Assembly: GCA_020831635.1 (NCBI GenBank)
Contig: JAFIGC010000001.1
Span: 57,217-121,216, forward strand
DNA from: Verrucomicrobiota bacterium
GTDB lineage: Bacteria > Verrucomicrobiota > Kiritimatiellia > SS1-B-03-39 > UBA6053
DNA: 64,000 bases
Direction of reading: 5' to 3'
The notes under the pieces are model-generated. The model did not search any database. It was not told the origin of the DNA and saw only the letters and a program-made list of their open reading frames with translations. Each line of letters starts with the position of its first letter. Within the stretch, counting starts at the first letter, position 1. A program made the position numbers and the translations under genes. Shown here in pieces: positions 27,574-59,078 of this stretch.

Positions 27574-27809
27574 CAGGCGGGGTTGTCGACCCTGCCGATT
27601 TTCATGATACCGGTGGCCTGGTTTTTCGATGGCAACGCCCCCAGCCGACGTTCTTTGGTATGTGGGGTTTTGGCCATTGTGTTGGTGATTCTCACGATTT
27701 ATGGCAACGAATTTGTCACCGTCAATGGTCGCTGAAAGATGTTCTTTGGAAGCGTCAAGATTCTGAAATAAATATTTGTTTTCATCAGCAGTCGCTATAT
27801 GATCGGTTC

Positions 27810-31077: not shown

Positions 31078-31155
31078 GGGTTTTTCCTGAAAATAGGATT
31101 TTCGTTTCATGAGCACACAATACCCCGATATGGACCTCCGGGAAAGCGGCAGCTT

Positions 31156-31171
31156 ATGTTCCAAGGAACAT
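31156..31171. promoter_or_regulatory. Putative operator ATGTTCCAAGGAACAT (perfect palindrome)
   Basis: Perfect inverted repeat between the LacI stop (31181) and the pseudopilin start (31077); near-identical site at 32235. Confidence 0.6.
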
Positions 31172-31180
31172 GACATTGAA

Positions 31181-32236
31181 CTAACTTGAGAGGTGAGGCC
31201 GGGTGGTTTCGCCTTTGACCCAGTTGGCCCGCAAGAGGGTTTCGTAGGGAGCTTTGGGCACGCCCCGCTTGTTTTGTTGCATTTGGGACAGAAGCAGATC
31301 CACGCAGGCCGCGCCGATTTGGGAACCCTCCAGACGCATGCCCGACCAGTGGGGTGTGTCGGGTCCCATCGACAAGTGTACAAGTCCAATGTCATTCGGA
31401 ATGTCGTACCCCCAAGATTCCAGCATTTGTCGGGCGCGCACGTCATTGCAAACGACGACCTCGGGCCGGTACTGTTTCAACCAGGCCCTCAATTCAGGGG
31501 CGGCGTCGCAAATTTCAGATTGGGGATAAAAAAGGGGCGGACACCACGTGAGGCTTGGATATCGTTCTTTTGCGACCAGATACCGTCCCTGATAGGCAAA
31601 GCCGGATTTCACATCGAGATTTTCCGCGATGGCCAGTCCGATGCGTTGGTAGCCGAGTCTGCGCAGTTCCCTGAGGGTCTTGCCGAGGCTGTAATTCGCG
31701 TCGGTGGCCACTCGATGTAGAAGCGGGCGCCAGGAATCGTGATGAAAGGTGACCCAGGAAAAATCATCCCAGCGCAGATGGAGGTGCTTCAGATTTCCCG
31801 GGGGAGGGGCGATAATACAGCCGGTAATGCCTCGGGCGGTGAGAATATCGCAGAAGCGTTTGCCGCTGAGTCCCCCTTTGCCAATCCAGAAGGTATCCAG
31901 GCCAAAACCCAAGGCGGCGGCATGTTCCCGCACCCCATCCAAATAAGGCTTCAAATGGGGGAGGGTCTGCCATGTATCCTCATGTTTATTGCTGTGTACC
32001 CAGGCCAGGGTGGCGTGTGGCGTTGAAGACTGGTCCCGTAGATTGGCGCGAATGGCCATGGCCATGGATAACACCGGATGGGGTTGAAAGTCGTATTCTT
32101 TTGCCAGCGCGAGAATCCGTTCGCGCGTTTCGGCCTTGACGGACGGATGATTTCTGAAAACCCGGCTCACCGTCATATGCGAAACCCCGGCAATCTCCGC
32201 CAGTTCCCGAATGGTATGCACGCGCTGCTTTTTCAT
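31181..32236 (-). CDS. LacI-family transcriptional regulator
   Basis: MKKQRVHTIRELAEIAGVSHMTVSRVFRNHPSVKAETRERILALAKEYDFQPHPVLSMAMA; C-terminal ACVDLLLSQMQQNKRGVPKAPYETLLRANWVKG. Confidence 0.92.
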   Translation of the reverse strand: MKKQRVHTIRELAEIAGVSHMTVSRVFRNHPSVKAETRERILALAKEYDFQPHPVLSMAMAIRANLRDQSSTPHATLAWVHSNKHEDTWQTLPHLKPYLDGVREHAAALGFGLDTFWIGKGGLSGKRFCDILTARGITGCIIAPPPGNLKHLHLRWDDFSWVTFHHDSWRPLLHRVATDANYSLGKTLRELRRLGYQRIGLAIAENLDVKSGFAYQGRYLVAKERYPSLTWCPPLFYPQSEICDAAPELRAWLKQYRPEVVVCNDVRARQMLESWGYDIPNDIGLVHLSMGPDTPHWSGMRLEGSQIGAACVDLLLSQMQQNKRGVPKAPYETLLRANWVKGETTRPHLSS

Positions 32237-41166: not shown

Positions 41167-41766
41167 TCAACGCGTGCAGGGGGAAATCCGTTTGGCCGTA
41201 CCGGGGATTCCGGTTTCGTGGAAGCGAATCATTTGATCCAAAAGCATGATCGCTTCCCTTGTGCACCAACATTTGTCTTTTTCCACCCAAGCCACTTGAT
41301 GCAGGATTTGGCTTTGCGTTCCGAATGCACATGCGGAAAAACGGGAAAGATCCATGTTTTCGGCAAAACCCGGGTGACGCGGGGTCGTGAAAATCACCCC
41401 CTGAATGTTTCGAGTGAAGAGAATGTTTTCGAGACGTTTGGCCGACAACCGCGGGGCATCAATTCTGAAAAGTTCCAATTGATATCTCAGTCTTTCCGCG
41501 GATTGACAAAACGCATCGAAAAGGCTTTCATCCGGGGCCTCGTCCACAATCCAAGCCAACACGGATGGCGCGGTATTCGTTTTGCGAAGCGATCCCATGA
41601 CCCTTGAGACTTCCGCGTTGGGCCGATAATCCAAGTCGCGGGCGATACGCTGAATCCGACTTCGGGTGGCTTCGGAAATGCGCGGATTGTTTCGCAAGGA
41701 GAGGGAAACCGTCGTGCGGGTCACTCCGGCGATGTCGGCGATGGTTTTCAGGTTGTGTGCTTTCAT
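41167..41766 (-). CDS. Short LacI-family regulator with apparent internal deletion
   Basis: MKAHNLKTIADIAGVTRTTVSLSLRNNPRISEATRSRIQRIARDLDYRPNAEVSRVMGSLR...; only ~199 aa, ending REAIMLLDQMIRFHETGIPGTAKRISPCTR. Confidence 0.75.
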   Translation of the reverse strand: MKAHNLKTIADIAGVTRTTVSLSLRNNPRISEATRSRIQRIARDLDYRPNAEVSRVMGSLRKTNTAPSVLAWIVDEAPDESLFDAFCQSAERLRYQLELFRIDAPRLSAKRLENILFTRNIQGVIFTTPRHPGFAENMDLSRFSACAFGTQSQILHQVAWVEKDKCWCTREAIMLLDQMIRFHETGIPGTAKRISPCTR

Positions 41767-41857: not shown

Positions 41858-41873
41858 GTGCAATCTTGCATGA
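41858..41873. promoter_or_regulatory. Putative operator GTGCAATCTTGCATGA
   Basis: TGCAA-TC-TTGCA palindrome upstream of the short LacI; 16/16 identical to 50680-50695. Confidence 0.6.
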
Positions 41874-41882
41874 GGTAAACGG

Positions 41883-44800
41883 CTAAGGCATGCGGACTTG
41901 AATTCGATAGGCGCGGACGGGGGCGGGGTCGGGATCTTGGATCACGATGATACCCGGGGTTTCCGTGGAAAGGTTCTGCTGCCCAACGAGGGGCGTCCAC
42001 CCGTCTGGGTCTCGCAGGTCGTCGTTGTAATACACGTCATAAACGCGTCCGGTGACGGTGGAGAATCCGAAGTCCTCGATGAGGAAGATCTGGGTCAAGG
42101 GGTTTTCGAGCCCCCAGACGAAGACCTGACGGCGGGTGTAGAGGGTGCCGTTGATTTCCACGGGTTCGTCGTTCAGGTTTCCGAAGGTGGCCATCTCCCA
42201 TTCGTCGTCGGCGCCACTGTCATTGCTGTCCACGAAGCCTTCCGAGGTCAAAAGCGTGAAAGTGGCAAGGGCAAAACCGGCGTGGGTCTCGTCCTCGATG
42301 CGCACCAAGGTTTCGTATCGGTTGGAAGTCGTCGGCAGGGCAGGGGAACCGTCGAATCGGCTGACCACGTTGAGCCCTGCGGGCGTGGTGGTGATGGTCG
42401 GACTTTTGCCGGTGCCGTCCACGGTTTGGGTGAGGTCGTTGAGACTGACGGTTGCCGGGGTTTTCAGGTAAGCGTCGGCCAAACGTTCCCCGATTTCCAT
42501 TGTTTGGGGCGAATTGAAGTGAATATCATCCCCGCCGGCGGGCCATAGATCGGCGCTGGGGGCCACCCGGGCAAATGGATCGGCTGCGGCGGCCATGAGC
42601 GCGTTGTTCACTTTGGCCACGTTTTCCGCAGTGAAGGCCGCGGAACGCGGGTTGATGTGCGAGGCCACGAAAAACAGTTCCGGCGCATGGAGATCGCTGC
42701 GAATTTGGCTCAGGAATGCGGCCAAATTGGCGGCATAGCCTTCGGCGCTCTCCGGTTGTGGCGAGTTGGAACTTGCGTCGCTCTCTCCCTGCAACCAGAA
42801 AAAGGCCTCCAATGACGCTTCGCGGTCTTCGATGATTTCCAACTCGGTACGGCGGGCGAGCAGATAGTCGCGGAGATCGTTGTAATAGGCGGAAGTATCG
42901 TTGTTGGCGGGGTCGAAATTTTGAAACAACGAGGCCCCATTGACTGCGAATTTCATCAGCGCGATGTCTTCGCCGTAGTGGGTTTGCAGTCGATGGCTCA
43001 GGGTGATCTCGGGGCCAAAGCCTTCGGCGTTCGGCCAGAAGGGTCCGTTGGTGGTGCCCACGTTTTGGACGTCCAACGGATTCCATCCGTTACTGGCATA
43101 TGGCGCCAAGGTGTCACCGTTTTTGTTGGCCACCAACCAGGCCCCGCGCACGCCGGGCACGCCGTTGCGGATCAGTTCCGGCAGGGCGTTGCGGTCATTG
43201 GAGCGGTATCCGACGGCATTGGACTGACCCGCCATGACAAAGGTGCGCATGGGCGAGGGCGCGGGGGCGCCTTCGCTGGCGGCGAAATTGTCCATCAGGG
43301 CCGCGTTGCCGTCGCGGCGCGCGCGCAGCACCGCCCAGAGGCGGGCGTCATTGGCCACGACGGGGTTGGAAACCGGGCTGTCGAGACTTTGCAGGCGTTC
43401 GCCGATTTCGCCACTGGCGTTGGATTCGAACAGGTCCAGGGTCAGTTCCGACGCGTTGGGACCGAGCCGCAGCCGCACGTAAATCCAACTGTTGTTGTCC
43501 AGCGCGAATGTGTCACCCGCGGCCACGGTGCTTTGTGCGCTGTCCGTGGCGGTTTTGTTGAGGATCTCCAGCCGGTAACCGCCGTTGTTGCTTAAGTTCA
43601 GAAGCCTGCCGGCCACATAGACGTTGGGATCCGAAGCCCCTCCCTGGAAATTCATGGTGGGGGAGGTGGCGAAGCCGAGCATGGCTGTGACCGAGTCGTA
43701 GCCGCTGTTGGCCTGTTCGCCGATGCGGACATGCACGCCCAGCGCATTGGCGTCCGAGGGATCAAACACCCGCGAGCGCAGGAGCAACTGGGGATTGCCG
43801 GAGGTGACCAGCGCCCCGGAGTTGTCAATCCCCCCGGTGGCCTGCAATGTGGCGGTGCCGTGGTTGACCCGGAAGTTTTGGGTCAACTCGTCGCCGCTTT
43901 CAAAGAAAACGAAAGGCGTTTCCGTATCGAATTCGCCCGTGATCAGCAGGCTGTCGCTGGCGGTTTCCACGGCATACAGGTCGGCGAAACTCGTGGCCAC
44001 GCGGATTTCGTCGAACTGGTCAAGGTTGCTGAATCCGGCGATGTCCAGTCTGCTGATGCCGGTCAGCGCTTCCTGCATATCGACTTCCCCGCTGGCGAGG
44101 GCATTCGCGGGAGATGCGCCGGAGACGTCGGGGTTCAGCCAGGCGCGCACTTTGCGGGCGGTGAAGTCAAACTCCATCACCGCAAAGAAGGTGGTGGGGG
44201 AGGGGTTGGCCCCCAGCAACTGCACGGAATTTCCCGTACCGGCCTCCAGAATCCAAAAGTCGGTGTTGTTTGCGTAGCGCACCCGGGCCCAGTTGCCGCC
44301 AGAGGTGTTTTCGCGAATGATCATTTGCGTGCCCCAATTTCCACTGTTTCGGTATAGCAGCGTGGAGACCCAAATGCTTCCGGTGGAATATTTTTCGGGG
44401 AAATTTCGCCGCGCGTCACCCCCGGCGCCCACATCCACCAGTTTGGCTGCACGCGTGCCGGATGTGCCGATGGTTCCGTTTTGCGCATACGTCAGCGCGG
44501 GTTCCACCAACACCGGACTGGCGTTGGCATGATACCAAGCGCCGCCCCAGCCCCATCCCGTCTCCTGGCCAGTCACCTCCGTATCCAACGCCCCGGCAAA
44601 CGACTCGCCGACGCGAGCCGCGGGCGCGGTGGCGGTGAGTTGCACCGGTGTTTCCGAGGCGGGTCCGCTGAGGGTCACGGCGAAGGTGTGGCTGTACTGC
44701 CCGTCGGGAATGATGACCGACGCGGGCGGCGTGAGCCGCGTGTCGTTGCTGTGCAGCAGCACCACCTGATCCCCCGCCAGCGTGTCGCGGGTGACGGTGA

Positions 44801-47800
44801 CGTTGATGCTACCCGCGCTTTCGTCCACGCTCGGCGCCTCAAAGGTCAGGGTAAAGTCGCCGGACGGCGCGGGGGTGATGGTGAAGATGGCCCCGACAAA
44901 GTTGAGGGTATAGTTTGCGCCTGCGGTGAGACTGCCCTGTTGAATGGCATAGTCTCCGGGCGCTTCCCCCGGATCGCGGGAGAGCGTGCCGCTCAGTGCA
45001 TCGCTGCCAAAGAGTTCGCCCGAGGTGATCTGCCAGGTGAGGACGGGATCGGCTTCGCCCTCGATTTTGCTTTGCGCGTCGGCGGTCACGGTGAGGGACG
45101 CGGGCGAAATCACCAAGGTCTCCTCGGCGCTTCCGACGTAGCCGGGTTCGGTCACGGTGGCGAGTACCATATAGGAGCCCGCGTTCACGGGTGGGGTGGG
45201 GGAACCGTTGTAAGTGACCTCCACCGTCAGACCGGGCGGAACTGTGTTGACTGACGCCGAACGTTCGGTGGCGTTGTAACTCTGCGCGAGATTGCCGAGC
45301 GTCACGTCCGCAGTCACATCCCCGGCGACCGGATCGATCTCAATGAAGCAGATTTTGTTGTTGGACGCGTCCTCGGCATTGGTGAGTGTGAGACGTCCGT
45401 CGGTCACCTCCACCGTGGCGATGCCCTCCACCCAGCGGTTGTCGGTGGTGGGGTCGCCGTTTACGACCAGCACCTCTTCGGCGGCAATGCGAAAGGCGCT
45501 GTCGAATGCGGTGGGATCGCCGGAGACGATGCGGACGTGGTAGTGCCCGTTGGGCAGGGCGATTTCCCAAGAGAAATTTCCATTTTGCTGCAAGTGCAGC
45601 AAGGAATATTCTTTTACGTTTTCGGAAGTCCAACCATTCCGTAAACGAGCCGAACCGCTGTTGTCCGCGTTCCAACCGTAAAACAATCCGTTGCCGCGGT
45701 CACCAAAGACCGCGCCAGTGTCGGAAACCCAACCCTCGGGGGTGTTGGACGCCCCGGCTTCCGAGATGAAATTGATTCGCGCCGAGAAGGGCCCGGTGTC
45801 AGTGATGATGTGTTCGACTTTCACCTCATCGATGTGAAACTGCGGTTCGGCGGAGTCGGCCCGGGTGCGGAAGCGGAAAAACACACGGTTGAAGGCGGTG
45901 ATAATTTCCTCCGAGTCCACCACCTCCTCCACCGGGTGGTCGTCGAGTCGATAGCGGATTCGCACTTCGTTCTCGTTCAGTCGCATGACCTCCAGCCAGG
46001 CTTCGATGACGTTGGTGCCCGCGTTGATTGATCGGGTGCCGTCTTGTAGCACGGTTTCGACGTTGAGCAACTGCGCTCCGTCGGTTTTGCGGATGCTGCC
46101 GAGATTCGCCCCATTGCCGTAGGAAGTCCGAACCCAGTATTCTTTGTTGGCGGCGTTGCTCCAAGGACTGTTGCCAGGGGTGTGGGCCAGCGAAAAGCCG
46201 GTGCGGGAGTTGTCGTCCCGCGGGGCTCCGGTGTGGCGGAGTTTGAACGAAAGCCGAATCGCCTCGCCCACCTCCAGCGCGATTTCCGAAGGGAGGGGGA
46301 AATAGAGATATTCGTCTTTGTCGGCGGTGTCCATGCTCAGTTCCCCCACCGCGTGCGGGGAGTCGGGGTCGAGGGTGCTGTCGGTGACCACGTCAAAGGT
46401 CCCCCCGGTCCGCGACCAGCTCAGGCTTTGCGGGCTGAAGGTTTCGTGCACGATCAGATGCGTGCCCGTGGCCTGTACTTCCAGGGTGGCGAGCGCGCTT
46501 TCCACCGTGCCCTCGCTGTTGCTGACCACGACATCGTAGTTGCCCGCATCGGCCAGGGTGACCGCGGAGAGGTTGAGCACGGCGGCATTCGCGCCGGGGA
46601 GTTCCACGCCGTTCTTGCGCCACTGGTAGGCGGGGGCGGGCATGCCTGAGGCCACCACGGAAAATCCGACGTTGGCACCTTGTACCACATTTTGGGACAA
46701 GGGCTGGGTCAGGATTTGTGGCGCGGCGGGCTCCAAGTCGCCTTCGCCCTTCACCAAAACGGTCTCGAAGGCGTAACGGATTTCTCCGCCGCCGTTGGTG
46801 CTGGTTTCCACCCGAAGCAGGCCCACCCCGCTTTGTTCCGGCGTGAAGGTGACCGTCCACGGCGCTTCGGTTTTGGTGCCCACCAAGTTATTGTTGAAAT
46901 AAAAATCCATGCGGTTGAAGTTCACGTATCCACGCGGATCGACGTTGACGGTAGTGCTCTCGCCCAGATTCACGGAGGTGATCTGACTGGAGGTGGTCGT
47001 GTGGCTGGTGATTTTGAGCGGGCTCTGAAAGGGCATGGCACCGGGATAGCTCGCGGAAGCCAGCGAAGAAAACGCCTGCAGTGCCCGGGCGATGCGTTCG
47101 CTGATCACCACACCGTCGTCTCCCGGGTCTTCCACGCCCGCCGCCGGACGGATTTGCAGATTGGCGGATGCAGTGCCCGCCGTGGGCGTGCCGTTGCCGT
47201 TAAACGTGTTGACCTGTTCCACCAGCCAGGTTTCGGCGTGTGGAATATTTTTGAGATCCACGAATTCGCCGAATCCTGTGCCGGGAACTTGCCCCTGCGG
47301 GTAACGCAATCGGATCAGTTCGTCCATAAACAGATACGCCATGGCCCAGCCTTGTCCTCCGTTGTCGGTGTGGCCGATATTCCAGTCCACGGCGGTGCTC
47401 ATTTGGCTGCCGGGCGGGAGAAAGGTTCGGTATCTGTCGAGAGCGTCATACAGGTTTTTGGCGGTCACGGTGCCGTCGTTTCCTCCTGAAATCAGTAAGC
47501 CCGGCGTAAACAAATTGCTTTCATGGATGGGGGTTTTGCCGTCGGACAAGGGGGGTACGTGGAAAGCATACCCGCCGCCCTTATGTGCGACAAAGCCGAG
47601 CACCTGTTCCGGCACCGATCCGTGGCTGTCGGTGCAGGCATATCCGCCGGCCGAGATACCGGTGAAAATCACGGGCACATTGCGCAACTCGTCCCGGCCG
47701 GAAAACAGGGCCAGGGCATCCATTTGGTTGTGGAACTTGGCGATGCCGCCGGGGGTGCTGTCCGCGAAGGCGTTGGCCAGTTGCCCCGAAATCGCAAAGC

Positions 47801-50612
47801 CCCATTGATCCGCCACCGCTTGGTGGGAAGCGCTCAGGATTTGTCCGCGCCAGTCTCCACCCGTGCCGGGCATGAAGTGGATGAGACCGCGCGGTACCGG
47901 GGTGTTGGTCGGCAGTCGCACCGCGATGCGCTTGCCCCAGAGGTTTTCAATCCACAAATCGAAAATTTGGCTTTCGTTGTCGATGATCAGGCCCAGGGAT
48001 TCATTGACGCTCACCTCCGCGCCACCCGTGGGGCTGGAGAGTTGGAACCTGATGCCGCGCACGCCCCGGGTGCCGCTGGACTGCACCGTATCGTTGTCGA
48101 TCAAGGGCACCTGCACGATCTTGTCTTCACTGTCACCATCGGCCCAAGTCACCACCTGGTTGACGCTGGTATAATCGCTTCCGGGCTGGGCGGCGGTGAT
48201 GGGGTTGGTCAATCCGAGATAGCTCGAAACCATGGAGGAGGATGTGTTGAAGGTGGCGCTCACGGCCCCATTGCTGCCCTGCACCCGGCGCAGCACGACC
48301 TCCATGTGCCCGGCGTTTTCCATGGCGGAAAAGCGGGGGCGTTCGAACTGAATTACCCCTTGACCGCCCGCAGGGGCTTCGGCGTCCAGAATATCCAGTC
48401 GCGCCCGGGCGTTGTCACCCAGCACCGCGCCCCCGCGCGGTTGACCGAGGAACAAAAAGAGACTTTCAATCCCCTCCACCAGCGGGTTGGGGCTCCCCAC
48501 GAAATCTTCCCAGGTTGAATCCGCATAGATCTCAAAGCTGAAGGATTTCTCCCCTGTCTCCCCGTCCGCCCAGGTGAGAAAACCCTTGCTGGCTGTGATT
48601 TCGGGTCGATTGCTTTGGAATTCCTGATGATAGCCGATCCCGCCGCTGCTGTAATTCTCCCCGGCGAAAGAGAGCGACTCCAATGCGGCGGCCACGTGGG
48701 CCACGGAAACTTCGCCCGCGCCTCCCCCCGCGCGCCGCACGCTGATGGTAACGGTCTTGGTGCTGGTGGAGGAATCCCCGGCCACAAACACCGGCTCCAT
48801 CACCTCAAAAACCGCTTGGGTGAACTCGATCACCCCCGGCCCTTCCTCGAGGAACAGGGCTTGGCCGGCGTTGTAATAGCTGCCGGACGCCGATTCGGTC
48901 AGCGCCACCGTGCGCACTTGGTACACGCTTCCTGCGGGTGCGCTTGCGTCGGCGTAGCTGGTCGTGGCCACGGGGGCGGTGGTCAGCCGCGTGTAGGGAC
49001 CTTCCAGACTGGTGGCGCGATACACGTGGTAGCCGACCAAATCCGGCTCGTTGGCGGGGGCCTGCCAGTCGAGTTGCACCGCAGAGCCTTCGCGGACGTA
49101 GGTGCCACTCACGGGCGCCGAGACCGGGTGCAGGCGCAGGGTGGGGTCGCCCATGAGGGCGATGTGGACGCTTCGCTGGGTGTTGTTGACCCAGTTGAAG
49201 TAGCCCGTCCACCAGTTGTCACCCCAGTCGTTGGGGTTGTTGACCGTACGCAGGTAGGCCTCGCCCATGGTTTCGCCGAGGGACATGCCGTGGAGATACC
49301 AATCCGGTCGGGTGGCCCACACGGACACAAGCCCCATGGAATCCATGGCCCCGGCAAGGGGGGCGCGCAACACGTTGTCGACGGGGCTGTCCCAATCGCC
49401 AAAGTAGGAACCGAAAAAAGCGTTGAACACGACCAGGCTGGTTTTGGTTTTGAAATCCGTTGAAGAGCCGACCCCACCAATACTGGTGTAACCGCTTCCG
49501 CCCCCGCCGTAGCCCCACAGGTAGGCTTCGCTCTCCACGGTCGGAAACCAGTTGGCGGATGCGGTGACCTGATCCCGTCCGAACATCGGTGCAAATGCCC
49601 GCCAAGCCATGGAGGCGGGAGTTTCGTTGTTGCCGGACAGCACCCCGAAAGCATCGCGAATCAATGCGCGCCGCGGCAGGTACGCGTAGTAACCCAGCCG
49701 ATGCCGGAATTCGTGGTTTTTGCGAAGATAATTTCGCAACAGTTCGGTTTCATTTGCGCCGGCCCCGAAGTCGTTGAGATTTGCCATGTCGATGCGTCCA
49801 ATGGCAATGTTGGCATCCTCGGGCAGACTGCTCTGGTCGAAGTTTCCGTCCCCCGGCACATTGTGGTTCCGTGCGGAGGAGGCGGACGTGGTGTTGACGG
49901 TCGTATCCGACCAGGTGCCGGTGAGATCGGCGTAGTAGGTGTCCGCAGGCCAGGCGCCTTTGTGGTCACTGTGGCCATCCGGAGCGATGTCGCCTGAATA
50001 CGGCACCGGAATGCGACCCAGAAGAATCGCGGCTTTCACGCCGGAAGGATCGGCGTTGTAGTGGGTTTGCAGTTTGGCGCGCACCGAAGTCGGGAGATCG
50101 TTTGGGTGTGCGCTGTCTTGAATCACATGCCACCCATCGCCCATAAGGTCTCGGACAAAGCGGTCGATTTCTTCCGACAGAGGTTCCGCTTGGGTTTCGT
50201 CCACCAAAAGCACCACAGTGCCGCGTTGATCGATCAACGGGGCTTGAATTCCGGCGATGGTATAGCCACGGGCGTTGAATGTGCTGAAATCGGATTCATA
50301 AAACCGGGCCACCCGATACTCATACCGCACACCCGCCTCCACACCCGTATCGACCCATTGCGTGTCTGCCGGGGCGGGATCATTCGCCTGATATACCCAT
50401 GTGGTTGTGCCCGGTGCGCGGCGGTGAATGTAGATATGACTGACCGGATGGGGACTTTCTTCCCATTGCAATGTAATTTGCGGCGGCGAATTCTGCGTTT
50501 CCGCATAAACCTGAACTGCCCGCACCGCGCCATCCTGGGCTACGGCCGTGGTCGTGAATAAGAAAAGAAAACAACAGGATACAAGGGTTTGAAAACTTGA
50601 AATTTTGTTCAT
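41883..50612 (-). CDS. Giant multidomain secreted protein (2909 aa): C25/gingipain-like region, Calx-beta, alpha/beta-hydrolase, Ig-like, MBG-like, SGNH sialate-O-acetylesterase-like, C-terminal domain
   Basis: Signal peptide MNKISSFQTLVSCCFLFLFTTTAVAQ; AAILLGRIPVPYSGD...ALMGDPTLRLHPV; VPVIFTGISAGGYACTDSHG; MRTFVMAGQSNAVGYRS...FFWLQGESDASSN; C-terminal GRVYDVYYNDDLRDPDGWTPL...DPDPAPVRAYRIQVRMP. Confidence 0.85.
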   Translation of the reverse strand: MNKISSFQTLVSCCFLFLFTTTAVAQDGAVRAVQVYAETQNSPPQITLQWEESPHPVSHIYIHRRAPGTTTWVYQANDPAPADTQWVDTGVEAGVRYEYRVARFYESDFSTFNARGYTIAGIQAPLIDQRGTVVLLVDETQAEPLSEEIDRFVRDLMGDGWHVIQDSAHPNDLPTSVRAKLQTHYNADPSGVKAAILLGRIPVPYSGDIAPDGHSDHKGAWPADTYYADLTGTWSDTTVNTTSASSARNHNVPGDGNFDQSSLPEDANIAIGRIDMANLNDFGAGANETELLRNYLRKNHEFRHRLGYYAYLPRRALIRDAFGVLSGNNETPASMAWRAFAPMFGRDQVTASANWFPTVESEAYLWGYGGGGSGYTSIGGVGSSTDFKTKTSLVVFNAFFGSYFGDWDSPVDNVLRAPLAGAMDSMGLVSVWATRPDWYLHGMSLGETMGEAYLRTVNNPNDWGDNWWTGYFNWVNNTQRSVHIALMGDPTLRLHPVSAPVSGTYVREGSAVQLDWQAPANEPDLVGYHVYRATSLEGPYTRLTTAPVATTSYADASAPAGSVYQVRTVALTESASGSYYNAGQALFLEEGPGVIEFTQAVFEVMEPVFVAGDSSTSTKTVTISVRRAGGGAGEVSVAHVAAALESLSFAGENYSSGGIGYHQEFQSNRPEITASKGFLTWADGETGEKSFSFEIYADSTWEDFVGSPNPLVEGIESLFLFLGQPRGGAVLGDNARARLDILDAEAPAGGQGVIQFERPRFSAMENAGHMEVVLRRVQGSNGAVSATFNTSSSMVSSYLGLTNPITAAQPGSDYTSVNQVVTWADGDSEDKIVQVPLIDNDTVQSSGTRGVRGIRFQLSSPTGGAEVSVNESLGLIIDNESQIFDLWIENLWGKRIAVRLPTNTPVPRGLIHFMPGTGGDWRGQILSASHQAVADQWGFAISGQLANAFADSTPGGIAKFHNQMDALALFSGRDELRNVPVIFTGISAGGYACTDSHGSVPEQVLGFVAHKGGGYAFHVPPLSDGKTPIHESNLFTPGLLISGGNDGTVTAKNLYDALDRYRTFLPPGSQMSTAVDWNIGHTDNGGQGWAMAYLFMDELIRLRYPQGQVPGTGFGEFVDLKNIPHAETWLVEQVNTFNGNGTPTAGTASANLQIRPAAGVEDPGDDGVVISERIARALQAFSSLASASYPGAMPFQSPLKITSHTTTSSQITSVNLGESTTVNVDPRGYVNFNRMDFYFNNNLVGTKTEAPWTVTFTPEQSGVGLLRVETSTNGGGEIRYAFETVLVKGEGDLEPAAPQILTQPLSQNVVQGANVGFSVVASGMPAPAYQWRKNGVELPGANAAVLNLSAVTLADAGNYDVVVSNSEGTVESALATLEVQATGTHLIVHETFSPQSLSWSRTGGTFDVVTDSTLDPDSPHAVGELSMDTADKDEYLYFPLPSEIALEVGEAIRLSFKLRHTGAPRDDNSRTGFSLAHTPGNSPWSNAANKEYWVRTSYGNGANLGSIRKTDGAQLLNVETVLQDGTRSINAGTNVIEAWLEVMRLNENEVRIRYRLDDHPVEEVVDSEEIITAFNRVFFRFRTRADSAEPQFHIDEVKVEHIITDTGPFSARINFISEAGASNTPEGWVSDTGAVFGDRGNGLFYGWNADNSGSARLRNGWTSENVKEYSLLHLQQNGNFSWEIALPNGHYHVRIVSGDPTAFDSAFRIAAEEVLVVNGDPTTDNRWVEGIATVEVTDGRLTLTNAEDASNNKICFIEIDPVAGDVTADVTLGNLAQSYNATERSASVNTVPPGLTVEVTYNGSPTPPVNAGSYMVLATVTEPGYVGSAEETLVISPASLTVTADAQSKIEGEADPVLTWQITSGELFGSDALSGTLSRDPGEAPGDYAIQQGSLTAGANYTLNFVGAIFTITPAPSGDFTLTFEAPSVDESAGSINVTVTRDTLAGDQVVLLHSNDTRLTPPASVIIPDGQYSHTFAVTLSGPASETPVQLTATAPAARVGESFAGALDTEVTGQETGWGWGGAWYHANASPVLVEPALTYAQNGTIGTSGTRAAKLVDVGAGGDARRNFPEKYSTGSIWVSTLLYRNSGNWGTQMIIRENTSGGNWARVRYANNTDFWILEAGTGNSVQLLGANPSPTTFFAVMEFDFTARKVRAWLNPDVSGASPANALASGEVDMQEALTGISRLDIAGFSNLDQFDEIRVATSFADLYAVETASDSLLITGEFDTETPFVFFESGDELTQNFRVNHGTATLQATGGIDNSGALVTSGNPQLLLRSRVFDPSDANALGVHVRIGEQANSGYDSVTAMLGFATSPTMNFQGGASDPNVYVAGRLLNLSNNGGYRLEILNKTATDSAQSTVAAGDTFALDNNSWIYVRLRLGPNASELTLDLFESNASGEIGERLQSLDSPVSNPVVANDARLWAVLRARRDGNAALMDNFAASEGAPAPSPMRTFVMAGQSNAVGYRSNDRNALPELIRNGVPGVRGAWLVANKNGDTLAPYASNGWNPLDVQNVGTTNGPFWPNAEGFGPEITLSHRLQTHYGEDIALMKFAVNGASLFQNFDPANNDTSAYYNDLRDYLLARRTELEIIEDREASLEAFFWLQGESDASSNSPQPESAEGYAANLAAFLSQIRSDLHAPELFFVASHINPRSAAFTAENVAKVNNALMAAAADPFARVAPSADLWPAGGDDIHFNSPQTMEIGERLADAYLKTPATVSLNDLTQTVDGTGKSPTITTTPAGLNVVSRFDGSPALPTTSNRYETLVRIEDETHAGFALATFTLLTSEGFVDSNDSGADDEWEMATFGNLNDEPVEINGTLYTRRQVFVWGLENPLTQIFLIEDFGFSTVTGRVYDVYYNDDLRDPDGWTPLVGQQNLSTETPGIIVIQDPDPAPVRAYRIQVRMP

Positions 50613-50679
50613 TGGGGGGGGCTCCGTAGGGTTGCGGCCATAATACCCTTCTGACCCCTTGATGGTTTAACCCTTTTCG

Positions 50680-50695
50680 GTGCAATCTTGCATGA
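50680..50695. promoter_or_regulatory. Putative operator GTGCAATCTTGCATGA upstream of the giant protein gene
   Basis: Same 16-mer as 41858-41873, located ~70 bp upstream of the start at 50612. Confidence 0.6.
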
Positions 50696-50720
50696 AATTA
50701 AGTTAACAGTTAACTTTTTC

Positions 50721-51890
50721 CTACTGCGACGATCTTCGTTGCCAGTCCCGAGGGGAAAGGCCTGTCACGGCCTTGAAGGCATTCGAAAACGACGCCGGGT
50801 TGGCGTATCCACAAAGATAACAAATCTCGCCGATGGGATGTTGTTTCAGTCGAAGCAATTCCTTGGCGTAGTCGATGCGCATTTCGGTGACCATGTCGCG
50901 GGCGGGTTTTCCCAAGGTGGCCCGGAATTTTTTTTCGAAGGTGCTGGAACTCATTCCGTGCGAGCGGGCCAGATCTCCCAAGGTGACAGCCTCTTGTTGG
51001 CGGATGCCGACCCAGATCGCGCGCAGGATTTTGGCCAGAATGGGGTCGGCGCAAGCGGGACCGGCGGTGGAGGCCCGCTCAATCAGGGTTTCCGGAGGGG
51101 AGCGGAGGACGATTTCGAGTTCTTTTCCGTCAAACACATGGTCCATCATGAGTGCGAGCGCCAAACGGCCCGATTCTTTGAACCCAGGTTGGATCGAAGA
51201 GAGGTGAATGGCCTTGCGCGGATCAAACCTGCCGCCGTGCAAGTTGTCCACCCCCAAAATCCCCAGGGTTTGCAGGCGTTGGGGTGTGTGTTTTTCCACC
51301 GAACGCAATACCGGCCATGCCAGCCAGTCGGATACCACGAAAAGTCCCGTATCCAAGGGCAGGTCGAAAATAACGGACTTGGCCTGTTCCCAGATGTGCT
51401 CCTGGTACCGTTGCGGGCTCCAGGAAGCCGTATCCAACATGGTTTCCAGATCCAGCGTTTGACATTCAAAGCCGTTTTCCTTCAGCGAATCCCGAAACCC
51501 GGTGAGACGCTCCCGGCTGTATTGGGCGTTTTTCACCCCCAGCCCGAGAAAATGCCGATAACCGCGCGAAAGCAAGTGCCGGGCCGCCAGGTGTCCGACT
51601 TTGTCATCATCGCTGAGGACATTTCCCGCGCCTGGCAAAGGACCATGCGTATTGGAAAGATTCACCACCGGTATGTGATATTTTTTGGCATTGTGCACCA
51701 GTTCCGGCTTCCAAAGCATCCCAATTAGACCCGCACACAGGTTATGATCGATAAATTCATGTCGAATCTCAATCATATAGGGGCAGTTTTTCCGTTCAGC
51801 GGTCTCGAACACGCCCTCCGCCATGCTGCGTCCCACCATATCCAACACGTTACTGCTGTTCAAAAGAATGAAATAAGGTTCCATCTTCAT
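50721..51890 (-). CDS. XylR-like regulator (LacI-type sensor domain + AraC HTH)
   Basis: 389 aa; C-terminal AraC HTH: ...MRIDYAKELLRLKQHPIGEICYLCGYANPASFSNAFKAVTGLSPRDWQRRSSQ; N-terminal periplasmic-binding-like fold. Confidence 0.88.
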   Translation of the reverse strand: MKMEPYFILLNSSNVLDMVGRSMAEGVFETAERKNCPYMIEIRHEFIDHNLCAGLIGMLWKPELVHNAKKYHIPVVNLSNTHGPLPGAGNVLSDDDKVGHLAARHLLSRGYRHFLGLGVKNAQYSRERLTGFRDSLKENGFECQTLDLETMLDTASWSPQRYQEHIWEQAKSVIFDLPLDTGLFVVSDWLAWPVLRSVEKHTPQRLQTLGILGVDNLHGGRFDPRKAIHLSSIQPGFKESGRLALALMMDHVFDGKELEIVLRSPPETLIERASTAGPACADPILAKILRAIWVGIRQQEAVTLGDLARSHGMSSSTFEKKFRATLGKPARDMVTEMRIDYAKELLRLKQHPIGEICYLCGYANPASFSNAFKAVTGLSPRDWQRRSSQ

Positions 51891-52049
51891 ACAGCTACAC
51901 AGAACAAAAAACGATTCAACGCAAATTTAATTACGTTTCAAAGCATATACGATCCGGCTGTTGGCGGGTAAATTTCGGGCATGCATTTTGACCTAAACCC
52001 TTTTTTGCGCACGGTCGTCACATTCCGTTTGCTTCCCGGAGATTTGATC

Positions 52050-55000
52050 ATGAAAAAATTGATGTTTCTGACCGCCGTCTTTTCTTTTCTGTCCTCTCCT
52101 GCATTTGCACAACTTACATTTTCCCCGAACACCCCCCCCGCTCAACTAACCCCGCCGACCGAGACGTACCATCACTTTGCCTCCCATCAAAAGGGGCCGA
52201 AAACTGTGCTGGTGATGCTGGTGCGCCCCAGCGACGCCCCAGCATGGACGGATCCCCCCGCGTTCGCAACCCTGAACAGCCAACTTGATGATGCGTCCCA
52301 GCGTTATTACAGCGCCAGTTATCACCAAACTTGGTTTGGTCCGAAACGTTTGAATAGTCATGATATTCCCCGTCTCGTGGTCACCCAAGTGCTGAACCTG
52401 CCGAAAACGGCGGATGAATACCGGGCGAGTTTTTGGACCCTTCAGAACGACTGTCTGGCCGCGGTGCGCGCCCAGGGCGGACAATGGAATGGCGGCAGCC
52501 TGGATCCCAACAATTTCGACCGCTGGGTACCGATGTCCAACGTAAAAATGATCAGCTCCACCGGTCTGGCCTATGTGGGCGGTCGTTTTGCCTGGGTGGG
52601 GCACAGCCTCACCGGCGGGGTGACCCTGCATGAGTGGGGGCACAACTGGGGAGTATACCACGCCAACGCTTGGACGGTCCCCGAAGGGGAACACCCCCGA
52701 TCCACGGCCGGGCACAACAGTGAATACCAGGACGGCTGGTGCGTGATGGGCGGGAACAGCGCCAACGTCATGTTCAATCCCCAGTTCCGCCTTGATCTGG
52801 GTTTTCTGGAGCGGAGTCGGGGGGAAGCGCTGGATGTCAGCGGCAGCGGCACCTACCGCATTCACAACTACGTTCACGCCGACCGACGGCAAAACGATTC
52901 GCTGGTGCGCGCGTTGGTGATCCCCATGGCGAATTTCACCGCAAACAATCGATTGATCCTTGGTTTTGGGCATACCACCGGCACTGATGGCGGGTGGGGG
53001 CGTTCGGATTACAATCGAAACGCGGTCACGGTTCATTCCAAGCTGTCCAGCGGTTCCAACCGCATCGACACCACGCCGTTCTCCCGTCCCGGAAGCGAAG
53101 ACCGCAACGACAGCTCCATCAAAATTGGGCGCACGTATTCCGAAGGTCCCAACGTCAACGGCACCCAAATGTATGGGGGCTTTCACATCACCCCGGTCCT
53201 GCGCGGCAGCACCGTGGTCAACGGCCAAACCCACGAATGGATCGAAGTCGTGGTGAATTACGAAAACGACATTCAGAACAATCAGCCCCCCACGGCATCC
53301 TTTCCCCAGACTTTGCTCACGGGGGTGGAGCCCGGCGTTCCCTACGAGCTAACCGTAACCGCGTCCGATCCCGACGGCGATTCCCTGGCCTTTGACTGGG
53401 ATTTCGGCGACGACACCTACAACATCGTCAACAGTGGCACCCAGACCAAAACCTGGGACACCGCCGGGGTCTATCTGGTCACCGTCACCGTCTCCGACAT
53501 GAAAGGCGGCACCGACACCGCCGAGATGTGGGTGAACGTCGGCAATGTGCCGTTCCGCGCCCCGGAAAACCCGGCGCAAACCCTGTCCGGCCTCCGTTAC
53601 ACTTACTACGAGGGCGTGTACAACCAACTTCCAAACTGGGGAAATCTTCTGCCGGTCAAACAAGGAACCGTGGCAAATTTGAGTTTGGAACCGCGCAACC
53701 GCAACAGCAATTTTGCCTTCGTGTATGAAGGGTATGTGGAAGTGCCCGCCGATGACGTGTACACCTTCACCCTGCGCTCGCGGGACGGCTCACGACTTTA
53801 TATCGGCGACAGTCTTTTGATGAACAATGACGGACTGCAGAGCCTCGCGTCCCCCGTTTCCGGCAACATTCCCCTCAACGCCGGCAAACACCGCATCCGC
53901 GTGGAGATGTTCAACCGCGACGGCAACGCAACCCTCGGTTTGGAATGGAGTACGCTCAGCATGGCGTCCACGGAGATTCCGGACGCGGCCTTTTTTCAAG
54001 AAGATCCGGTGGATCTCGCCCCGCCCGCGGTTTCCATCACCTATCCGACCCCCGGCATGCTGAGCATCGTGGGAAGCGATATCGAGATCGCCGCCAACGC
54101 GACCTCGGAGTACGGCATTGATCGGGTGGTGTTCTTCATTGGTTCCGCATACCTGGGGGAAGACAGCACCCTCCCTTACAGTTTGGACTGGACCAACCTT
54201 CCGGTCGGCTCGTTCTTTATCACCGCAGTGGCCTACGACACCCTGGGAAATTTCACGGTCTCGGATTCCGTGCTTCTGGATGTCACCTCGCCGATCCAAC
54301 GCGATTCCATCGGCATCAATTTCCTGGGCACCTATGGCACCAACGGATCCCTGGCGTCCACAGACCAGGCCGGGGCTTTTTTCATGCAGGCCCATTGGAA
54401 CAATGCGCCCCAAGGGAATATCGGGGAAACCTGGGACGCCACCGTGAACAATTTGAAAGACCGTGATGGCGAGGTCACCTCCTCTTGGACCCGCTACCGA
54501 AGCCGGAACCATGCCAATCACAGTCCTTCCGGATCGACGTTGGTGGACAACAGCACCACGAACGGACGACTCATGTACGGGGGCCTGCGTGTAAGGGGCG
54601 ACACGGCGGGTCCGGTCGTCGAAGTGGGCAACATTCCTTTCGATAATTATGATGTCTTTGTATATTTCGATCACCATGAAAGTGACGTCCGGGATGTCAG
54701 CCCGAATGAATACGTGCTCATTCCCAACGGAGAAAGCCCGATGCCCTCCATTTGGGGGCATAACTCCCTGGTGGCCGGCGACGGGGTGGGGGACTATCCC
54801 AACTACGACACTTGGGTGGGGTTCAAGGAATCCACCGCCACGGGGCCCAATTCTCCGGTGGATGAACGGCTGGGGAATTATATCATTTTCCGCGATGTCA
54901 GCGCCTCGATGTTTCGATTGGAGGCCAATAACAACGGCTCCGCCATCAACGCGGTTCAAATCGTCAGCACCGCCGAAAATCCGACGGAACCCATGATCTA

Positions 55001-58000
55001 TGGTCAGCCGCAGTCGTTGAGTCTACCCGAAACCCGCACCGCCGAATTCCGGATTCTTTATGTCGGCTTTCCCGCCCCGTCCGTGAATTGGTACAAAGCG
55101 GGAACCGGAGCCTTGGGGATCACGGGGGACAAGCTGGTGCTGGAAAATATCAGCCCCTCTGACGCCGGAGACTATTATGCCGTGGTCACCAACAGCGAAG
55201 GCACCGACACCAGCAACATCGCCACCTTGACGGTCACCGATCCGCCCCCCGCCGCCCCCACCGATCTGGTGGCCGTGGCCCTCGGCACCTCGGAAATTGA
55301 ACTCACATGGACCGACAACGCCGACGACGAGGAGGCCTACCTGATTTACCGCTCCGCATCGGCCACCGGTCCCTGGGCCTTGGCGCACACCGCCGCAGCC
55401 GAGGTCACCGAATACGTGGACAGCAACCTACCGGAAAGCACCACCTTCTATTACTATGTCAGCGCTGTGAACGAAAAAGGCGAGAGCAATCCCAGCAATA
55501 TCGCCGAGGAAACCACGCTGACTTCCCCGCAGGACGTGGAAATCACCCTCCAGCCGGTGACCACCGGCGCCACCGTCGGCCAGTCTGCCAGCCTGACCGT
55601 GGAAGCCACCGGCTATCCCGCGCCCGCCTTTCAATGGCGGAAAGACGGCGTGGACATTCCCGGCGCAAACGCCGCTACCTTCATCCTCGAAAGCGCGACG
55701 CTGTCCGATCACGGCACCTACACCGTACACGTGTCCAACATGCAAAGCGAAGTGGAGTCCGCGCCCGCCATGATCGTGGTCACCGAACCCTTTCCCTTCG
55801 CCATCAATCCACTCCACGTCATCAATGGCGGAACCGTCAGCGAAAACGACGGCACGTACACAATGAGCCGCTCCGGAACCGATGTCTTTCAGGGCATCGT
55901 CTCCAATTTCCAGGAGGTTCCCCTGTTGGAAACGGGGGACTATGTGGAGTTGAGTTTCAGCCTGCGATCCAACACCGGCAACAATTCAGGACGAAGCATC
56001 GGCTTTGGGTTTTTCCACGGTCCGAATGTCACGGGCAATGCCCAAACCATGGTGACCGATCTTTGGGAAGGCTACCTGCACCAGCCCGGCTCCCGCAGTA
56101 GCGCGGGGAACATGTCCTATGGGTTGGCCCGTCAAGGGGCTGGGCCCATTGGCCTGATGGATTACGCGGGGGGAGGGACGGCGCTGGATGGCGTGAACCA
56201 CGCCGCAAATATGAGCGGACTCAATCAGACGGTCCTTACCCCCGTAACCCTGCGTCTGGAGCGAATGAATTCCACGCAGATTCGACTTCGCAGTGTGTTC
56301 ACCACCCCCGATTCCAACCGCAACGGAAGCGGAACCCACAACGGCATCGCCTGGAGTTTTTCCACCGTGGATGGCGTGTGCACGGTCAACAGCACCTTCC
56401 CGGTTGCGAACGGACCCGAGGTGTTCAACGGCTTCGCAATCGCCACCCGCGGCAACTGGGTTCTGCAGGTGCACAGTATCAGCACCAACGTGGACCTGGA
56501 GGCCCCGGCGCTGCCCCCACCCGCCCCGGAAAACCTCATCGCCACCGCCATCTCCGGGAGTCAGATCGACTTGGCTTGGACCGATCCGACCGATCTGTCG
56601 GATCCGACGGATGGTTTTCGCATCGAGCGCTCCGCCGATGGCAACTCCGGCTGGGCCCTGCTGGACACCGTAACCGGGACTGGCTACAGCGACACGGGGC
56701 TCACGGGCGGCAGTACTTGGTATTACCGGGTGATCGCCGAACGCGACGGCATCAGCAGCGCGCCCTCCACCGTGGTTTCCGCCACCACCCCCGCCGATCC
56801 CGCCCCGCCGGTGATCACCCAACACCCACAGTCGCAAACCGTGGGCGAAGGGGAAAACGCCACCTTCACCGTGACCGCGACCGGCAATCCCGCGCCTTCG
56901 TTCCAGTGGCGCAAAAACGGCGACGATCTGGGCGGCCAAACAACCGACACCCTGAACCTCATCGATGTGGGCAGCACCGATGCCGCCAACTACACCGTCT
57001 TTGTGTTCAACGGTGTCGGTGACGGCGTGGAGAGCGATGTGGCCACCCTCACCGTGACCGCCCCGCCGCCTCCCGCGCCCACAGACCTTCAGGCCACCGC
57101 AGTTGATTACGACCAGATCGACTTAATTTGGACGGATCCGACCGATCCGTCGGATCCGACCGATGGATTCCGCATCGAGCGTTCCGCCGACGGCACCGGC
57201 AATTGGATTACCCTCACCACCGTCACCGGCACCGAACACAGCGACACCGGCATTGCCGCGGAAAGTACCTGGCACTACCGCGTCATTGCCCTGCGCGACG
57301 GATTGGAAAGCGAACCCTCCAACGTCGCCTCGGCCACCACCCCGGCCGCGCCCGCCGCGCCGGTGATCACGTCACAGCCCCAATCGCAATCCGCTTTTGA
57401 AGGGGCCAACGTCACCTTCGGCGTCACCGCCACCGGCAATCCCGCGCCGACCTATCAGTGGCGCAAAGGTGGGGAAGATCTCCCCGATGCCACGGACAGC
57501 ACCCTTACGCTCAACAGTGTTACCTTTGGCGATGCCGGCAACTACACCGTGTTCGTGGACAACGGCATTGGTGACGGCGTGGAGAGCGATGTGGCGGTAC
57601 TAACGGTGAATGAAGCTGGCAATCTACTCATTTATGAGGGCTTCGACTACGACATCTCCCTCACAAACTTGGACGGTCAGCCGCCCACGGGCGAAGGTCT
57701 CGCTGAAACCTGGTCGCAACGGCATATCGGTCCAGGCGAAAGCAACGTGGTCGCAGGGCTCGAGTTCGGACCTCTGGTCGTCAGCGGCAACGCCTTTCAG
57801 TTGCTCGGAGACCGTCTTACCAGTGGCAGCGACCGCTTTAATGTGGTCTCGATTCCCGTGGAAGCCACCACAAATGCGAACACACTCTGGAGCAGTCATT
57901 TGGTGGAGTTCCGGGTACGAGATGAAAACCAAGGCCGCAACAGCACCAACCCTGACGCCCGTTGGCAAGATCGGGTGGGCTTTTTCCCCGATCAAATGTC

Positions 58001-59078
58001 ACGAACGGACACCCCCCGGATCGGTTTTTCCGCAACCGGGGACGGATCAACCAGTGAAGGGCGCGTCGCTTTGGCGGGCGGCAATACGGATGGGGGATCG
58101 GCGCTTGTTTTCGGCGAACCCCATATGATCATCGGCAAGGTCACTGGCATGCATGACAATGGCACCGGGGTCACCAAAACCGCCACCATGTGGGTGCTGA
58201 ACCTCGCCGACTTCGAGGCCTTTGTGGCCGAGGGGCGCACCGAGTCCGCACTCGCAACCCATCATCGCTACCAACTCACCCGCACCGTCACCAACGACAC
58301 CGAACTCAGCCTCAGCGGTCAACACCTTAACCTGCACACCCTCGATTGGAACACCCGCAACTTCTTCCCCGTGTACGACGAAGTTCGTTGGGGCGTGGAC
58401 CTGCAATCCGTCACGCCCGTGGTGCAAACCGGACCGGATGCCCCAGAAATCACCGCCCAGCCCCAGAGCCAGACCGTGTACGCCACCCAAAGCGCGACCC
58501 TGAGCGTGAGCGCCACCGGTGAAAATCTCGTCTACCAGTGGTTCAAAGGCGAAGACGAAGTGAGTGGTGCGACCGCAGCCAGCCTCGTCTTCGATCCGGT
58601 CGAGGAATCGGATGCAGGCGATTATCAGGTCGTGGTGAGCAACGCGGGTGGCGATGTGCCGTCCGGAGTGGCCACGCTCACGGTTCTGCCCGAGGACCAC
58701 TCCAGCAACGACGCCGATGTGCCCGATCTCTGGGCTGCGGAATATTTTGAAGAAGGGGAGGAACTCCCGCTCACCGTCGACAAGGGCGGGGTGCAGGTGC
58801 CGCTCCGCACCGTGTACATTTGGGGACTCGATCCGACCGATCCGCAACAGGTTTTCGAAGTCATCGCTCCGCAGCTCAACGGTGGCGGCATGACCCTCAG
58901 CGGCATCCACACCGTTCCCGGTCGCCGATACCGCCTGCAATTCAGCGATGATCTCACCGATACCGACGCGTGGACCGATCTCGGCGACGAAATCGACGGC
59001 AACGGGGACACCCTGGACTTCAACGACCCCAACCCCGCCAACCATCGCGTCTACCGCATACGGGTTAGAAAGCCATAA
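52050..59078 (+). CDS. Giant secreted metzincin-like protein with PKD, PA14, Ig and FN3 modules and the shared C-terminal domain
   Basis: Signal peptide MKKLMFLTAVFSFLSSPAFAQ; VTLHEWGHNWGVYHANAW (HExxHxxGxxH) with downstream WCVMGGNS; PKD FDWDFGDDT; PA14 LRYTYYEGVYNQLPNW...YTFTLRSRDGSRLYIGD; repeated QPQSQ...FQWRKNG Ig and FN3 units. Confidence 0.87.
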   Translation: MKKLMFLTAVFSFLSSPAFAQLTFSPNTPPAQLTPPTETYHHFASHQKGPKTVLVMLVRPSDAPAWTDPPAFATLNSQLDDASQRYYSASYHQTWFGPKRLNSHDIPRLVVTQVLNLPKTADEYRASFWTLQNDCLAAVRAQGGQWNGGSLDPNNFDRWVPMSNVKMISSTGLAYVGGRFAWVGHSLTGGVTLHEWGHNWGVYHANAWTVPEGEHPRSTAGHNSEYQDGWCVMGGNSANVMFNPQFRLDLGFLERSRGEALDVSGSGTYRIHNYVHADRRQNDSLVRALVIPMANFTANNRLILGFGHTTGTDGGWGRSDYNRNAVTVHSKLSSGSNRIDTTPFSRPGSEDRNDSSIKIGRTYSEGPNVNGTQMYGGFHITPVLRGSTVVNGQTHEWIEVVVNYENDIQNNQPPTASFPQTLLTGVEPGVPYELTVTASDPDGDSLAFDWDFGDDTYNIVNSGTQTKTWDTAGVYLVTVTVSDMKGGTDTAEMWVNVGNVPFRAPENPAQTLSGLRYTYYEGVYNQLPNWGNLLPVKQGTVANLSLEPRNRNSNFAFVYEGYVEVPADDVYTFTLRSRDGSRLYIGDSLLMNNDGLQSLASPVSGNIPLNAGKHRIRVEMFNRDGNATLGLEWSTLSMASTEIPDAAFFQEDPVDLAPPAVSITYPTPGMLSIVGSDIEIAANATSEYGIDRVVFFIGSAYLGEDSTLPYSLDWTNLPVGSFFITAVAYDTLGNFTVSDSVLLDVTSPIQRDSIGINFLGTYGTNGSLASTDQAGAFFMQAHWNNAPQGNIGETWDATVNNLKDRDGEVTSSWTRYRSRNHANHSPSGSTLVDNSTTNGRLMYGGLRVRGDTAGPVVEVGNIPFDNYDVFVYFDHHESDVRDVSPNEYVLIPNGESPMPSIWGHNSLVAGDGVGDYPNYDTWVGFKESTATGPNSPVDERLGNYIIFRDVSASMFRLEANNNGSAINAVQIVSTAENPTEPMIYGQPQSLSLPETRTAEFRILYVGFPAPSVNWYKAGTGALGITGDKLVLENISPSDAGDYYAVVTNSEGTDTSNIATLTVTDPPPAAPTDLVAVALGTSEIELTWTDNADDEEAYLIYRSASATGPWALAHTAAAEVTEYVDSNLPESTTFYYYVSAVNEKGESNPSNIAEETTLTSPQDVEITLQPVTTGATVGQSASLTVEATGYPAPAFQWRKDGVDIPGANAATFILESATLSDHGTYTVHVSNMQSEVESAPAMIVVTEPFPFAINPLHVINGGTVSENDGTYTMSRSGTDVFQGIVSNFQEVPLLETGDYVELSFSLRSNTGNNSGRSIGFGFFHGPNVTGNAQTMVTDLWEGYLHQPGSRSSAGNMSYGLARQGAGPIGLMDYAGGGTALDGVNHAANMSGLNQTVLTPVTLRLERMNSTQIRLRSVFTTPDSNRNGSGTHNGIAWSFSTVDGVCTVNSTFPVANGPEVFNGFAIATRGNWVLQVHSISTNVDLEAPALPPPAPENLIATAISGSQIDLAWTDPTDLSDPTDGFRIERSADGNSGWALLDTVTGTGYSDTGLTGGSTWYYRVIAERDGISSAPSTVVSATTPADPAPPVITQHPQSQTVGEGENATFTVTATGNPAPSFQWRKNGDDLGGQTTDTLNLIDVGSTDAANYTVFVFNGVGDGVESDVATLTVTAPPPPAPTDLQATAVDYDQIDLIWTDPTDPSDPTDGFRIERSADGTGNWITLTTVTGTEHSDTGIAAESTWHYRVIALRDGLESEPSNVASATTPAAPAAPVITSQPQSQSAFEGANVTFGVTATGNPAPTYQWRKGGEDLPDATDSTLTLNSVTFGDAGNYTVFVDNGIGDGVESDVAVLTVNEAGNLLIYEGFDYDISLTNLDGQPPTGEGLAETWSQRHIGPGESNVVAGLEFGPLVVSGNAFQLLGDRLTSGSDRFNVVSIPVEATTNANTLWSSHLVEFRVRDENQGRNSTNPDARWQDRVGFFPDQMSRTDTPRIGFSATGDGSTSEGRVALAGGNTDGGSALVFGEPHMIIGKVTGMHDNGTGVTKTATMWVLNLADFEAFVAEGRTESALATHHRYQLTRTVTNDTELSLSGQHLNLHTLDWNTRNFFPVYDEVRWGVDLQSVTPVVQTGPDAPEITAQPQSQTVYATQSATLSVSATGENLVYQWFKGEDEVSGATAASLVFDPVEESDAGDYQVVVSNAGGDVPSGVATLTVLPEDHSSNDADVPDLWAAEYFEEGEELPLTVDKGGVQVPLRTVYIWGLDPTDPQQVFEVIAPQLNGGGMTLSGIHTVPGRRYRLQFSDDLTDTDAWTDLGDEIDGNGDTLDFNDPNPANHRVYRIRVRKP

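Follow-up and report, generated by a model that had tools for sequence, protein, structure and literature searches.

Among the described systems to which the protein tail reported here can be compared, the C-terminal domains of the T9SS (Por_Secre_tail, type A, and CHU_C, type B) are beta-sandwiches that sit at the ends of unrelated exported proteins with signal peptides and occur in many copies per genome. The signals of PEP-CTERM/exosortase, GlyGly-CTERM/rhombosortase and similar systems are likewise C-terminal and modular, are carried by many exported proteins in the phylum of the bacterium considered here, and are about 25 residues long. In the pectate lyases PelI and Pel3, a loop of an FN3 domain is a T2SS secretion determinant that is read by GspC and GspD (PMC7949064); this FN3 domain is complete, lies at the N-terminus and belongs to a single enzyme family. 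Here we compare with these systems the common tail of two giant proteins encoded in 64,000 nucleotides of Verrucomicrobiota DNA (the window; contig JAFIGC010000001.1). The tail proves to be a genuine C-terminal module, abundant and not yet modelled, and we consider the chances about even that Sec-exported proteins use it as a detachable address tag for sorting or retention.

The two proteins are encoded on opposite strands. P0001 (41883-50612, minus strand; translation and Pfam) is an exported protein of 2909 residues that begins with a signal peptide, MNKISSFQTLVSCCFLFLFTTTAVA (50538-50612, minus strand; heuristic scan), and in which Pfam places a partial C25-like region, Calx-beta, Ig and MBG domains and a SASA esterase domain ahead of the C-terminal tail. 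The open reading frame of P0002 covers 51981-59078 on the plus strand (2365 residues), and translation probably begins at the ATG at 52050 (MKKLMF...), from which a signal peptide, MKKLMFLTAVFSFLSSPAFA, is read (52050-52109, plus strand; heuristic scan and upstream sequence). The resulting exported protein of 2342 residues (52050-59078, plus strand; translation, Pfam and upstream sequence) contains a zincin-like HEWGHNWGVYH motif, PKD, PA14 and Big_7 domains, five Ig domains, three fn3 domains (Pfam) and the tail. Two giant secreted proteins of 2909 and 2342 residues are therefore encoded where the preliminary description of the window had placed them. That description also named dedicated regulators flanking the genes, and these do exist: a mini-LacI of 199 residues with a LacI-type HTH only (41167-41766, minus strand; Pfam LacI, E 5e-14) lies downstream of P0001, and an XylR-like regulator (Peripla_BP_3 and AraC HTH_18 by Pfam; 50721-51890, minus strand) lies between P0001 and P0002. 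Both, however, belong to this locus alone and are therefore uninformative on any export class. The upstream regions of P0001 and of the mini-LacI gene each contain a 15-bp site, TGCAATCTTGCATGA (50681-50695 and 41859-41873, respectively), and a search of the 6-Mb genome allowing up to one mismatch returned exactly these two copies. The pair is a candidate operator for the mini-LacI and is relevant to the expression of P0001, not to the tail. The leucyl/phenylalanyl-tRNA transferase gene directly after P0002 (59082-59876, minus strand) is unrelated.

The last ~117 residues of P0001 and ~128 residues of P0002 align at 32% identity (E 3e-15), and comparison of the whole proteins recovers the same match (E 9e-11), values that argue against chance. 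A stop codon directly follows the tail in both proteins, which bears out the earlier proposal of a common C-terminal domain of ~110 residues ending at the stop. The tail, ~120 residues in total, opens with a TSP3-like calcium-loop lead-in that is partly degenerate and continues as a predicted beta module of ~80 residues. In P0001 the lead-in (FVDSNDSGADDEWEMATFGN...LYTRR; 42129-42236, minus strand), assigned by alignment and by relatives that match Pfam TSP3_bac, retains one plausible calcium loop, D-x-N-x-S-G-x-x-D; in P0002 (EDHSSNDADVPDLWAAEYF...; 58692-58799, plus strand; alignment) the loop is degenerate, S-x-N-x-A-D-x-x-D, and offers no plausible calcium loop. Where the second calcium loop would stand, both proteins have a stretch that finishes with WGL(D/E). 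Thus, the Asp-rich, calcium-type lead-in noted previously is present as a TSP3-type motif, but the motif is an ordinary one and has been partly lost in both proteins. The beta module that follows is flush with the stop in P0001 (QVFVWGLENP...RAYRIQVRMP; 41886-42128, minus strand) and in P0002 (PLRTVYIWGLDP...RVYRIRVRKP; 58800-59075, plus strand; AlphaFold2 and Foldseek). Conservation across tails is low, with few conserved residues (Y, W, R).

Existing models reach the lead-in alone. TSP3_bac (PF18884) matches 16 of 38 tails at E <= 0.1 and neither P0001 nor P0002. Along with the Amuc_1099 family (NF042425) and MtsD (NF047639), it has the lead-in motif D-x-D-x-D-G-x-x-D...N-x-x-E-Y-x-A-G-T-D-P in common with the tail, though all three models span this motif only and leave the beta module outside. 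Across P0001, P0002 and the 38 tails, no Pfam or NCBIfam model, Pfam fn3 included, matched the beta module; an existing model as a known sorting domain was among the findings that the preliminary description had named as grounds for rejecting its proposal. Profile and structure predictions, though each is weak, agree on a fibronectin type III-like fold ending after strand F. With hhalign, the tail profile matched FN3 domains of the same proteins at E 1e-4 and a probability of 56%; Ig domains reached 2% and a reversed control 0.8%. Searched against PDB profiles, the tail matched a discoidin-like CBM32 of chitosanase best (E 0.004), then several FN3 domains (E 0.05-0.3). The AlphaFold2 model of the beta module by itself (five-sequence input) reached a pLDDT of 73, the full-tail model being poor (pLDDT 54), and Foldseek with the beta-only model returned mostly FN3 domains, with a best E of 0.07, TM-scores of 0.4-0.5 and none below E 0.001. 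Together these profile, Foldseek and AlphaFold2 results lend weak support to strands B to F of the FN3 sandwich. Strand G is apparently missing, because the polypeptides stop just past strand F, and the edge it would cover may be open. The module thus resembles Pfam fn3 domains in the order and spacing of strands B-F, with weak profile and fold matches, and departs from them in the lack of a Pfam fn3 match, in the apparent lack of strand G and in its C-terminal placement.

Two apparent links to other families were set aside. A phmmer search with the P0002 tail matched a myxobacterial hemagglutinin (E 7e-5); no single repeat, however, scored better than E 0.11, and the family profile was blind to it. 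NF042425 matches 12 tails, in each case through the TSP3-like motif only (profile positions 105-158), which we regard as a lead and not as evidence; outside this motif, the Amuc_1099-family protein presumably resembles a GspC/PilP-type region. Amuc_1099-family platform proteins carrying the TSP3-like motif of the tails occur in the genome itself (C26:28026-28601 and C26:30414-31451), where they adjoin a secretin, and at loci L248-L277.

The position of the module was strongly biased toward the C-terminus. At most 24 residues (median 2) separated its end from the stop in 72 of 72 copies from close relatives and from the genome itself, a set that is biased in being the top matches of a profile made from C-terminal copies. 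In a broader sample from four genomes the same was true of 68 of 77 copies, so that the expectation of an invariably C-terminal domain held among close relatives but not in the wider family. Of the nine exceptions, at least eight lie inside the protein, one (L198) being followed by a terminal copy, and the ninth (L191) is a match at E 8e-4; when longer flanks were read, seven of the nine were still internal or far from the end. One internal copy lies close to the N-terminus, and in another case an internal tail-like beta module stands directly before a complete sulfatase domain, apparently as a fusion (L246, G235:C184). By comparison, TSP3-only matches in the same proteins were terminal in 1 of 42.

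Signal peptides, which the earlier proposal had also anticipated on the carriers, were found by heuristic on 60 of 72; the heuristic is permissive, since 25 of 52 long control ORFs from the surroundings were also positive. Among the 12 negative carriers, several lose their 5' end at the border of the fetched region or have a broken frame, and in one (L153) a clear signal peptide lies outside the stretch that was scanned, such that nearly all carriers with a readable start probably bear one. The cargo is diverse, with 76 Pfam families over 41 carriers, including GH9, GH13, GH31, M36, C25, ice-binding and multiheme cytochrome domains. Individual carriers document the exchange of tails: C142 has 1036 residues in common with P0002 at 44% but a different tail subtype; C249 has a tail like that of P0001 (56%) on cargo like that of C179a (35% over 1055 residues); and the P0002 orthologue of genome G003 is missing ~620 internal residues and retains the tail at 77%. 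These comparisons indicate that tail subtypes shuffle independently of cargo, the two having been recombined within the genome itself. A frame-broken remnant of a second tail gene lies near a P0002 orthologue (L079, 3306-3794).

The tail is far more widespread than the locus in which it was noticed. In the genome itself there are 19 matches to the P0002 tail, and a 14-row profile raises this to 36, ~20 of them confident. It was found in 20 of 20 nearest relatives and, with a 38-row profile, in 283 of the 388 genomes sampled from the phylum, a count of presence and not of copy number, since it drew on no more than about eleven candidates per genome. In four genomes, the copies detected with a beta-only profile numbered 6, at least 119, at least 110 and at least 69. 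A conserved-pattern search returned two named relatives, both Verrucomicrobia MAGs, and a literature search of openly accessible papers returned no description of the tail. The tail accordingly represents a large and as yet unnamed family, spread over the phylum at the ends of hundreds of unrelated exported proteins and not peculiar to P0001 and P0002. In one genome, an open frame of 26,627 residues, whose last 2,948 residues were read, ends in a tail (G172:C61:160-423; L195, L199).

This distribution refutes the original suggestion of a special export class of these two proteins with dedicated regulators, to which we give practically no weight: regulators do stand beside both giant genes, and the mini-LacI and P0001 have a site found nowhere else in the genome, but some 20 tails lie elsewhere in that genome. 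A distant T9SS C-terminal domain, read by bacteria with a T9SS, would follow the same logic of a signal peptide and a C-terminal beta-sandwich on varied cargo, and C25-type domains do occur among the carriers. Against it, no T9SS tail model of Pfam or NCBIfam matched P0001, P0002 or the 38 tails, and SprA (PF14349) was found in 0 of 388 phylum genomes, though the control genomes were silent as well; the FN3-like fold and the ~10% of internal copies in the broad family are further differences, and we regard this reading as very improbable. Hardly more credible is membership of the exosortase/PEP-CTERM pathway. Exosortase (PF09721) is present in 30 of 30 tail-rich and 36 of 40 further tail-bearing genomes versus 6 of 20 tail-negative ones, a contrast confounded by phylogeny and drawn against tail-negative genomes that happened to be listed and were not a chosen sample; four of the 70 tail-bearing genomes are without exosortase (66 have it), and six tail-negative genomes possess it. 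The tail is moreover a folded domain without a basic cluster, and a C-terminal transmembrane helix was detected in 1 of 140 tail proteins (19-residue window, KD >= 1.6, last 60 residues). The tail thus does not have the defining features of a known exosortase-type substrate, which largely refutes a direct role as one and upholds the early distinction from PEP-CTERM, the helix being absent in 139 of 140. A strong GspD-type secretin (E < 1e-70) is universal in the tail-rich genomes (30 of 30) but not specific, being present in 9 of the 20 tail-negative genomes listed, again with phylogeny as a confounder. No secretion or anchoring gene that accompanies the tail specifically emerged from these comparisons.

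The two readings that remain in contention are a sorting or retention tag, which we consider the likeliest single explanation at roughly even chances, and a structural or adhesive cap, which comes close behind as a serious though somewhat less probable account. As a cap, the tail would be a calcium-stabilised TSP3 spacer with an FN3-like domain that shields the C-terminus, or binds glycans or matrix after export, and the export route would not read it. Exported proteins often contain TSP3 and FN3-like modules as structural elements, the same carriers hold many TSP3 repeats in their interior, internal copies of the tail exist, sequence conservation is low, and the best PDB profile matches include the discoidin/CBM32 domain of chitosanase. 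A plain structural module would, however, be expected internally and in tandem far more often than in ~10% of cases, and a single copy per protein, shuffled independently as the last module of unrelated cargo, suits a tag better. The tag reading draws on the C-terminal bias (72 of 72 and 68 of 77) as opposed to the non-terminal TSP3-only matches (41 of 42), on signal peptides, diverse cargo, independent shuffling of tail and cargo and numerous copies (two genomes have at least 110-119), and on the missing transmembrane helix, the FN3-like fold, the secretin of all tail-rich genomes and the PelI/Pel3 precedent (PMC7949064). The internal copies (at least eight of 77) count against it because a strictly C-terminal signal would forbid them, as do the few conserved residues, the failure to find a partner gene and the weak FN3 similarity. 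What had been put forward as a novel surface-protein export class is thus borne out in its C-terminal module, signal peptides and unrelated cargo, and export or surface sorting is plausible on this pattern, but a new class is not established, as the comparisons yielded no machine and some copies lie inside proteins.

As a tag, the tail could operate as follows. The signal peptide of the carriers, evident from sequence, sends them to the periplasm. Sequence comparison likewise shows one tail, a TSP3-type lead-in with an FN3-like module, capping unrelated enzymes and adhesin-like proteins and being exchanged among them. The module would fold as an FN3-like sandwich ending after strand F, without strand G and possibly with an open edge, and an envelope partner may then recognise the folded tail for outer-membrane crossing or surface retention. 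Speculatively, this partner could be a secretin-based, type II-like system, proposed because tail-rich genomes always have a secretin. By analogy, a T2SS link is a reasonable conjecture, since an FN3 secretion determinant is known from PelI and Pel3, though the tail is C-terminal, rides on many cargos and apparently has no strand G. The overall logic would be akin to that of a T9SS C-terminal domain without the tail being one. More tentatively, and with some doubt, we suggest that an unnamed phylum-wide export or surface-retention pathway reads this FN3-like module without strand G, perhaps through completion of the open edge, and serves up to more than 100 cargos per genome. If the tail is a sorting tag, it would show how a large and environmentally important phylum exports polysaccharide-degrading enzymes and giant surface proteins, and the exported proteome of uncultured Verrucomicrobiota would be predictable from sequence. 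Should it be no more than a structural cap, it still constitutes an abundant unmodelled domain family that merits its own profile.

Two further features of the window were recorded. An 876-residue protein (34917-37547, minus strand) carries both a XamI-type restriction endonuclease domain and an Eco57I-type N6 methylase domain, and a protein with passenger-associated-transport repeats (PATR; 27660-29885, plus strand) lies near a pseudopilin-like DUF1559 protein (30388-31446, minus strand).
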